Under the pieces are notes generated by a model. That model was not told where the DNA came from. It ran no database searches and saw only the letters and a list, made by a program, of their open reading frames with translations. From positions 1 through 64,000 of the forward strand of contig NZ_JAKEIO010000006.1 in NCBI RefSeq assembly GCF_021474405.1: a stretch of DNA of 64,000 nt, read 5' to 3'. Numbering within the stretch: the first letter of the stretch is position 1; each line of letters opens with the position of its first letter. The position numbers and the translations under genes are program-made. The DNA comes from [Streptosporangium] indianense (GTDB taxonomy: Bacteria > Actinomycetota > Actinomycetes > Streptomycetales > Streptomycetaceae). Below are positions 8,593-46,754 of the stretch, in pieces.

Positions 8593-8639
8593 CGGATCCC
8601 GTTCGTGAAGGGACCGGCGTCCCGCGATCCGGACTCGGG

Positions 8640-8669
8640 TTGCGGGGCGCCGATCTTTTCGCGTACGTT
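8640..8669 (+). promoter_or_regulatory. Putative promoter of the SAM-riboswitch transcript
   Basis: TTGCGG (8640-8645), an 18-bp spacer and TACGTT (8664-8669) place the transcription start at about 8676, exactly where the aptamer begins. Confidence 0.5.
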
Positions 8670-8675
8670 CCTGAG

Positions 8676-8800
8676 CAGGTCATGAGTGACAGTCATGAGG
8701 CCCCGGCCGACTGTCCGGCAACCCTCCGTCCGTGGCGGGGTGCCCCGGGTGAGGACCGGGTCGTAGGCAGCGAGGTCTACGGCAAGCGCGTGACGAGGAG
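8676..8800 (+). ncRNA. SAM-IV-type riboswitch
   Basis: S-adenosylmethionine-sensing leader in front of the PLP enzyme at 8929. Seen directly: closing stem GGTC (8678-8681) with GACC (8754-8757); a 7-bp P2 GACAGTC (8688-8694) with GACTGTC (8709-8715); the conserved CGGCAACCCTCC segment; GGGGTGCCCCGGGTGA; and a 3' hairpin CGTAG (8762-8766) with CTACG (8777-8781) followed by GCAAGCGC. This arrangement, with SAM-I-like core but a different downstream element, is that of the actinobacterial SAM-IV class as I remember it. A Shine-Dalgarno (AGGAG, 8796-8800) follows at once, pointing to translational control. A covariance-model search would settle the class. Confidence 0.82.
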
Positions 8801-8806
8801 TCTTCC

Positions 8807-8827
8807 GTGAACCAGCGAATGCGATAG
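8807..8827 (+). CDS. Six-codon leader ORF (MNQRMR) downstream of the SAM riboswitch
   Basis: GTG AAC CAG CGA ATG CGA TAG lies 6 nt behind AGGAG (8796-8800), which abuts the riboswitch. It ends about 100 nt before the start of the main gene. The Shine-Dalgarno is much better than chance, so the riboswitch may control translation of this mini-ORF and, through it, the downstream gene. No function of the peptide can be inferred from its sequence. Confidence 0.45.
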   Translation: MNQRMR

Positions 8828-8928
8828 GGCCGCAGAGCCCCGCCTCCGCATCCCCCTTCTCCTTTCACCCCCGCTTGAGCCGTACGCGCTCGCGGGCGGA
8901 TTCCACCTGCCTTCACGGGAGTTCCGTC

Positions 8929-44411: not shown

Positions 44412-46593
<2,182 letters not shown>

Positions 46594-46603
46594 GGGCGTC
46601 CAG

Positions 46604-46696
46604 CCCCTCCCTTCGCCGGCATGACCCGGATCAGGTTCGTACGGTCGGAGGCCGCCAGCCTCCCTCTCAGCCCGGTGCGTCCGGGCTCCCGCGAGT
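46604..46696 (-). ncRNA. TPP riboswitch (THI box)
   Basis: In transcript sense: CTCGCGGGAGCCCGG, the highly conserved GCTGAGAGGGAGG, a variable helix, then GAACCTGATCCGGGTCATGC and GGCGAAGGGAGGGG. These are the pyrimidine- and pyrophosphate-sensing arms of the TPP aptamer. TCGC and GCGA close P1. The GGGAGG Shine-Dalgarno of thiO is in the final segment, so ligand binding would hide it. ACCCTA at 46711-46716 is the complement of a TAGGGT -10 box about 15 nt before the aptamer. Confidence 0.96.
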
Positions 46697-46754
46697 GCTT
46701 TACGTTGGCCACCCTAGCCCGATGCCCTGTCCCGCAGTAAGGGAGCCTCGTCCC

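Follow-up and report, generated by a model that had tools for sequence, protein, structure and literature searches.

What does a riboswitch control when the Shine-Dalgarno (SD) sequence at its 3' end opens on six codons rather than on the gene downstream? The question is raised by a locus in the stretch of 64,000 nucleotides that we analysed (the window), in which a SAM-IV aptamer is followed by a mini-ORF encoding MNQRMR and then by the gene of a cysteine-desulfurase-like enzyme (Table 1). An earlier note on this DNA proposed that the riboswitch acts through translation of the tiny upstream ORF (uORF). Comparison with orthologous leaders strongly supports this proposal, in that SAM-IV matches and the start and stop of the uORF are kept in close relatives; neither a missing SAM-IV match nor a destroyed start or stop, which the note had named as refuting it, was observed. 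A hairpin on the stop codon, an invariant rare CGA codon before AUG and a C-rich spacer were absent from that note and are described here. Judged by this comparison, the mini-ORF with its stop-codon hairpin and fixed rare codon before AUG is real, conserved and riboswitch-linked.

Table 1. Features of the leader and main gene in the window
Feature	Position	Strand	Basis
SAM-IV riboswitch aptamer	8678..8794	+	RF00634, 108.6 bits, model 1-116
Shine-Dalgarno GAGGAG of the mini-ORF, abutting the aptamer	8795..8800	+	sequence; SD-like 4-mer in 164/164 uORF leaders
Six-codon ORF GTG AAC CAG CGA ATG CGA TAG (M-N-Q-R-M-R)	8807..8827	+	coding signature on tree; no broken copy in 24 leaders without ORF
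Invariant CGA-AUG codon pair	8816..8821	+	codon 4 third base: 0 changes, 163 rows; CGA rare in main genes
Hairpin GGGC-CGCAGA-GCCC, first base = G of stop UAG	8827..8840	+	anchored stem of at least 4 pairs in 159/164
C-rich, G-poor spacer, putatively Rho-site-like	8841..8916	+	C > G in 157/160 relatives' spacers
GGGAG, the main gene's own SD	8917..8921	+	sequence
Class-V aminotransferase / cysteine-desulfurase-like PLP enzyme, 455 aa	8929..10296	+	Aminotran_5 E 7.1e-75; SufS model 247 bits

Layout of the locus

The covariance model RF00634 bore out the SAM-IV assignment: the score lies well over the gathering threshold of 38 bits, the E value is 4.3e-19 and the match runs over the full model. 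The SD at the aptamer end serves the mini-ORF and not the main gene, as had been proposed: 6 nt separate GAGGAG from the GTG of the mini-ORF, and the main ATG lies 101 nt after the mini-ORF stop, where about 100 nt had been estimated. The exact mini-ORF pattern occurs once in the whole genome. Directly 5' of the SAM-IV element, at 8615-8652 and behind a gene that we take to be trpD, stands a strong terminator-like hairpin with a T-rich tail.

Among 148 leaders with the aptamer end located, 109 carry a hairpin between aptamer and SD (GGACCCC..GGGGUCC type), and in 84 of those 109 the SD stretch can pair instead with the 5' side of this hairpin, an alternative pairing that looks like the usual translational platform. 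Neither the window nor several of its close relatives have this hairpin, and their SD adjoins the aptamer model directly; in this clade the folded aptamer end itself likely hides the SD. With these counts, and with none in the window's clade, a general anti-SD hairpin as the OFF state was rejected. That the aptamer gates the SD we consider very probable. In one set of g7 leaders (L237-L240, L242-L253) the aptamer ends on a GCAAGCCGGAC-like stretch instead of GGCAAGCGCG, and the 3' pseudoknot partner seems to have changed.

The best-scoring NCBIfam model for the enzyme is SufS (TIGR01979), whose cut-off of 475.1 bits lies above the 246.7 bits obtained, and a separate true SufS in the same genome scores 619.9 bits. 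The window belongs to a Streptomyces genome; the first-listed named orthologues, in S. paradoxus, S. tibetensis and Streptomyces sp. NRRL B-1140, are 95-96% identical. SAM-IV also precedes orthologues of this enzyme in other actinobacterial families, with both element and enzyme found at 22 loci outside the Streptomycetaceae where the aptamer was located, loci which, being chosen through their SAM-IV element, are silent on how often orthologues carry one. The separate SufS and the SAM-IV elements in other families lend indirect support to the earlier suggestion of a sulfur/methionine role over generic Fe-S assembly, and fit a putative role of the enzyme in sulfur or methionine supply.

Conservation and coding signature of the mini-ORF

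The six-codon ORF is present in 164 of the 188 orthologous leaders of Streptomycetaceae examined, window included, an occurrence above chance. It is found in 79 of the 80 named Streptomyces loci that came out best in a protein search with the enzyme; the loci beyond these 80 were located through their SAM-IV element and some are possibly of the same species as named ones (138 of the first 140 leaders are distinct). An SD-like 4-mer lies 5-15 nt upstream of the ORF start in all 164. Exact MNQRMR is a minority form, the common one being M-S-K-R-M-R, and by this comparison the conserved feature is not the peptide alone.

We mapped parsimony changes on a tree of the main gene (192 rows, FastTree, one gene), using 163 copies; L123, in which the stop follows Met, was left out of the 164. 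Changes per base were 12/0/0 in the start codon, where position 1 is G, A or T, 3/10/8 in codon 2, 9/3/1 in codon 3 and 2/4/38 in codon 6, i.e. 38 at the wobble base and 6 elsewhere. Each of codon 4 (CGA), codon 5 (ATG) and the stop (TAG) gave 0/0/0, zeros which at the demanded bases were pre-set and needed a check because the search pattern itself required xTG, CGx, ATG and a stop; what the pattern left free was position 1 of the start, the wobble base of codon 4, codon 6 as a whole and the choice among the stop codons. No degraded copy was found in the 24 leaders without a match, whose best stretches differ from the 21-base consensus at 8-12 positions, just as shuffled sequences do, compared with 0-5 in the 164 ORF bearers. 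Outside the ORF, bases 12-22 upstream of the start (counted back from it, ungapped) changed 36 to 55 times each. Interchange of start codons together with wobble freedom in codon 6 is, on this tree, the mark of coding selection, and the uORF is almost certainly translated.

Codon 6 is CGA in 102 of the 163 copies, CGC in 28, CGT in 27, CGG in 1 and not Arg in 5. Two stricter statements were found wrong, namely that codon 6 is never CGG (L265 is the one case) and that its Arg is invariant (the exceptions are Leu in two copies, Gln, Cys, Ser and the one stop after Met).

The stop-codon hairpin

A stem of at least 4 pairs anchored exactly at the G of UAG was found in 133 of 138 distinct leaders, as compared to 22% after dinucleotide shuffling of the 40 bases concerned, and in 159/164 of the larger set. 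When the anchor was slid along the 138 leaders, such stems numbered 59 at +1, 29 at -1 and 61 at -7; all other offsets from -12 to +24 gave 17 or fewer, those from +2 to +24 at most 14. If this G has to pair, the use of TAG as the stop in every copy but one would be accounted for. In this exceptional copy (L123, ATG-TGA), a single case, the distance from AUG to the next hairpin is still five bases.

Pair 4 of the stem is CG in 152 and GC in 7 leaders, and pair 5 is CG in 40, GC in 29, UA in 8 and UG in 2. Covariation was modest. Stems of at least 5 pairs form in 77 of 147 distinct leaders with their own 3' parts, versus a mean of 63.3 with swapped 3' parts (sd 4.6, highest 78 in 300 trials), while stems of at least 4 pairs hardly changed (142 vs 139.4 of 147) because the core GGGC/GCCC is nearly fixed. 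A claim of strong covariation was rejected: it came from 26 five-pair stems preselected for pairing, in which the facts that all cells are paired, that 9 double changes occur and that 0/500 shuffles reach the covariation score prove little, and the swap test, made on leaders that were not so selected, gave a weaker signal.

With mostly 4-5 pairs the stem is short, and it lacks a U-tract. It lies in the minimum free energy (MFE) fold of 135/159 leaders folded with 24 nt downstream, 65/159 with 40 nt and 73/159 with 60 nt; in the window it is outside the MFE fold and a competing fold wins. A canonical terminator after the uORF was rejected, as a terminator scan behind the uORF in the window found none.

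The CGA-AUG pair and the spacer

Arg at codon 4 is encoded by CGA in 164 of 164 copies. Over the opening 1020 nt of the main genes, which together contain 3917 Arg codons, CGA is the rarest of those seen (1.1%), as compared to CGC (48%) and CGG (40.6%). This codon is decoded by an inosine tRNA, slowly. In yeast, CGA-CGA is treated as an inhibitory pair (PMC6301793, available part). From the fixed rare CGA before AUG, ribosome pausing follows as a sharp prediction that can be tested, and we give even odds that CGA-AUG is a ribosome pause site. CGA-AUG in a riboswitch-licensed mini-ORF may be a ribosome-parking cassette, for which no name was found in the open-licence literature. An RNA pairing partner as the reason for CGAAUG was rejected, no conserved one being found: a 6-bp partner (G-U allowed) exists in 45/164 leaders between aptamer P1 and main start and in 5/164 aptamer 5' parts.

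The spacer between hairpin and main gene is C-rich over the relatives (mean C 0.455, G 0.218, T 0.240), and C exceeds G in 157 of the 160 spacers of at least 30 nt. The sole control for this C-richness, the 40 nt after the main gene at 104 loci, has C 0.377 and G 0.390. A C-rich, G-poor stretch resembles a Rho loading site. The uORF stop and the position that corresponds to the main ATG of the window are 51-313 nt apart (median 102.5), and the three frames occur 57/55/52 times, which argues against readthrough or coupling. That the uORF continues in frame into the enzyme, by readthrough or as an extension, was rejected on these equal frames, and the window's own frame differs. An SD-like 4-mer precedes the position homologous to the main start in 114/164.

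Natural variants of the leader

The six-codon uORF was not found in the 22 orthologues outside the Streptomycetaceae, and in those of the 22 that were read, the riboswitch SD precedes the enzyme start. Direct fusions occur within the Streptomycetaceae also, in g2 (3 loci), g14 (10), five g7 loci and S. flaveus (L032). All three elements, the ORF, the hairpin and the spacer, are absent from them, and the enzyme starts from the same SD. Streptomyces flaveus JCM 3035 (L032) has lost all three and its riboswitch SD serves the enzyme ATG directly, so to judge from its leader it is a natural deletion control. The comparison of leaders shows, at the level of sequence, a uORF under coding selection with its stop tied to the hairpin position and its CGA before AUG fixed, and it shows uORF, hairpin and spacer present or absent together.

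Other mini-ORFs were seen in g15 (1 locus, MQMMR-TGA) and g5 (4 loci, GTG ATG GCG TGA). In the g5 loci (L145, L146, L263, L264) a two- or three-codon ORF follows the SAM-IV SD, with a possible hairpin downstream, and GTG ATG GCG TGA may perhaps be a still smaller relay.

On the gene tree g2 and g5 are the earliest branches, g14 is sister to the uORF-bearing g11/g4, the L132/136/234/235 group is sister to the uORF-bearing L148, and L245 and L032 are nested among uORF bearers (the branch placing L245 is weak, 29, within branches of 88 and 95). By this tree direct fusion arose several times within the Streptomycetaceae. Strict parsimony gives 5 changes between uORF and no uORF, which fit two gains and three losses; if L156 (MQMMR) is taken as a diverged form they fit one gain and four losses, and a single gain is our reading. 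The leader count left out L196 (aptamer unlocated by pattern), L003, L227 and L271 (duplicates), L226 (SufS), and L149 and L153, whose short stretches gave no main-gene match; by reading, L149 is a direct fusion, and in L153 a CGA-ATG ORF follows CTG.

Proposed mechanism and its alternatives

We propose that the aptamer opens or closes the SD at its 3' end and that in Streptomyces this SD belongs to a six-codon relay ORF, not to the enzyme. At high SAM the SD would be hidden, no ribosome would load, the stop-codon hairpin would form, and RNA polymerase would stop or be removed by Rho in the C-rich spacer. At low SAM a ribosome would enter the ORF and be slowed at the rare CGA before AUG, the more so if charged Met-tRNA is scarce; its body would cover UAG and the 5' arm of the hairpin, and transcription would continue into the enzyme gene. 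The uORF would in this way relay the state of the riboswitch to transcription without changing the sign that direct SD control has in the relatives. Transcription attenuation through this relay appears to be the best explanation, with a probability of about 0.47, slightly down from 0.5 because the covariation control came out modest. For the part of it that has the uORF act through premature transcription termination, the chances seem evenly balanced, reduced from slightly better than even because hairpin covariation is only modest.

Several points stand against this mechanism. With six codons to translate, the ribosome has little time to be in place before the hairpin has been transcribed, and the mechanism needs the assumption that polymerase pauses. 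Once at the stop, the ribosome would still expose most of the C-rich spacer to Rho. There is a single internal Met codon. The stem is short, without a U-tract, often outside the MFE fold and of modest covariation, and the window's clade lacks the alternative anti-SD hairpin that most relatives have.

In favour of the relay stands a premature SAM-IV transcript reported in S. clavuligerus before an aminotransferase class-V-fold PLP enzyme, CRV15_21540, among the most extreme leader-to-gene drops in that organism (PMC8269248). The 3' ends found by Term-seq can, according to the same paper, be processing ends too, and the stop-codon hairpin and a parked ribosome might accordingly set mRNA stability rather than transcription termination. 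Nothing direct speaks against this, the C-rich spacer fits Rho better, and we hold it to be unlikely.

Rare CGA codons in a very short ORF might also make a decoy or brake, whose translation would lower enzyme expression as uMetE2 suppresses MetE in M. tuberculosis (PMC11260477), or at which a short peptide or drop-off at CGA-AUG-CGA-UAG would sequester ribosomes. However, in relatives a direct fusion puts the enzyme itself behind the riboswitch SD, and a brake would reverse the sign of control. SAM riboswitches usually repress with SAM; if the direct-fusion form is so repressed, the uORF must transmit with positive sign. These relatives are, from their sequences, our main argument for a relay over a brake. 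We consider it probable that the uORF acts positively, and the brake and the sequestering of ribosomes, taken jointly, are improbable.

Termination-reinitiation, in which ribosomes finish the uORF and go on to start the enzyme, has a known relay of the same logic behind it. In M. tuberculosis ppe2, downstream of a B12 riboswitch, the main gene depends on riboswitch-gated translation of uPPE2, mainly by termination-reinitiation at an AUGA overlap (PMC11260477). The relay proposed here is similar, but the starts here neither overlap the uORF nor lie close to it, the 51-313 nt show no frame preference, the hairpin stands directly behind the uORF stop, and many main starts have an SD-like 4-mer of their own; this alternative has a small chance. 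That the ORF is incidental, CGAAUGCGNUAGGGC being an RNA element and its codons accidental, would suit the near invariance of CGAAUG and UAGGGC as DNA, but with start position 1 only G, A or T, codon 6 varying at the wobble base, an SD before every copy and few pairing partners for CGAAUG it is very improbable.

Among the closest published likenesses of the attenuation relay is the pe20 Mbox of M. tuberculosis (PMC12810186), where the SD at the 3' end of an actinobacterial riboswitch also serves a small ORF and the gene lies further downstream. Premature termination in that leader is Rho-dependent, whereas here termination is proposed; its ligand is Mg2+ and not SAM. The uORF2 of pe20 is well expressed, conserved, controlled via a second SD and viewed as a peptide in its own right, and unlike here no stop-codon hairpin or CGA-AUG pair is described in the available part of the paper. 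Riboswitch-uORF relays are thus already known from Mycobacterium tuberculosis, and the form with stop-codon hairpin and CGA-AUG is new.

As in attenuators of the trpL/leuL type, a ribosome on a short leader ORF would decide on an adjacent hairpin. Unlike there, the aptamer would gate ribosome loading, the hairpin starts in the stop codon, and a run of codons for the regulated amino acid is not found, each of the 164 copies having one internal Met codon beside rare Arg codons. Streptomyces has several leader-peptide attenuators (PMC8079986). In S. lividans SAM-IV was placed before SLIV_26975, called a cysteine desulfurase, and the six-codon ORF is not among the eight leader peptides printed in the available part of that paper (PMC8079986). 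The open-licence literature, in which most subscription journals are absent, yielded no report of a uORF that follows SAM-IV, and the available part of a review (PMC9971707) does not treat one.

If the attenuation relay is true, a metabolite riboswitch and a ribosome-based attenuator would work in series through a conserved six-codon ORF, for which the natural deletion variants already provide controls. The relay would also account for changes of RNA level by a translational riboswitch in Streptomyces, and it would mean that ORFs under the usual annotation limits can be essential wiring.

SAM-IV leaders in other families and neighbouring riboswitches

In other actinobacterial families SAM-IV also stands before genes that we take, from their protein starts, to be metY-like, and short ORFs, often rich in Cys, occur in several of the leaders concerned. 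CGA-ATG is present in 12 of 20 ORFs picked by eye behind SAM-IV in these families, from 63 and 27 loci (L161, L163, L176, L179, L208, L279, L282, L284, L287, L290, L294 and L296; absent from L174, L216, L274, L275, L285, L286, L291 and L295), or in 12/24 if four possible ORFs without it that were left out (L169, L188, L189, L193) are counted in. The assignment ahead of a metY-like gene excludes L161 and L296; L288, L299 and L301, which had been anchored wrongly, were not used in this survey. The apparent sharing of CGA-ATG across families is a lead. A wider reading, which we advance tentatively and at clearly less than even odds, is that of a two-input gate: the aptamer would read SAM and license ribosome loading, and CGA-AUG would read charged Met-tRNA and set the stay of the ribosome on the hairpin, which would otherwise end transcription. 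It would cover the actinobacterial SAM-IV leaders, those of metY reading Cys-tRNA also through adjacent Cys codons.

Actinobacterial Cys leader peptides (NF042934, NF042936 and NF042933) serve sulfur genes. They too are short leader ORFs, and other SAM-IV elements of this bacterial family precede such ORFs; unlike them, the six-codon ORF lacks Cys, and these models are too long for it. The same genome has a second SAM-IV (G000:C2:90296-90404, L002:1501-1609), followed by a Cys-type leader ORF of 49 codons, which scores 19.5 bits with NF042934, under the cut-off of 27, and then by a gene that is presumably ABC permease-like. Similar leaders of SAM-IV and Cys type were read at L142, L150, L158, L159 and L160.

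Elsewhere in the window a TPP riboswitch (46591-46702, minus strand, 64.9 bits) lies ahead of what we take to be thiO, thiS and thiG. Pairs of SAM-IV elements facing apart, with about 100 to 220 bases between them, were seen at G236:C169:14065-14498, G352:C16:1956-2291, G226:C1:1096541-1096906 and G216:C2:180862-181262, placed as if serving divergent genes.
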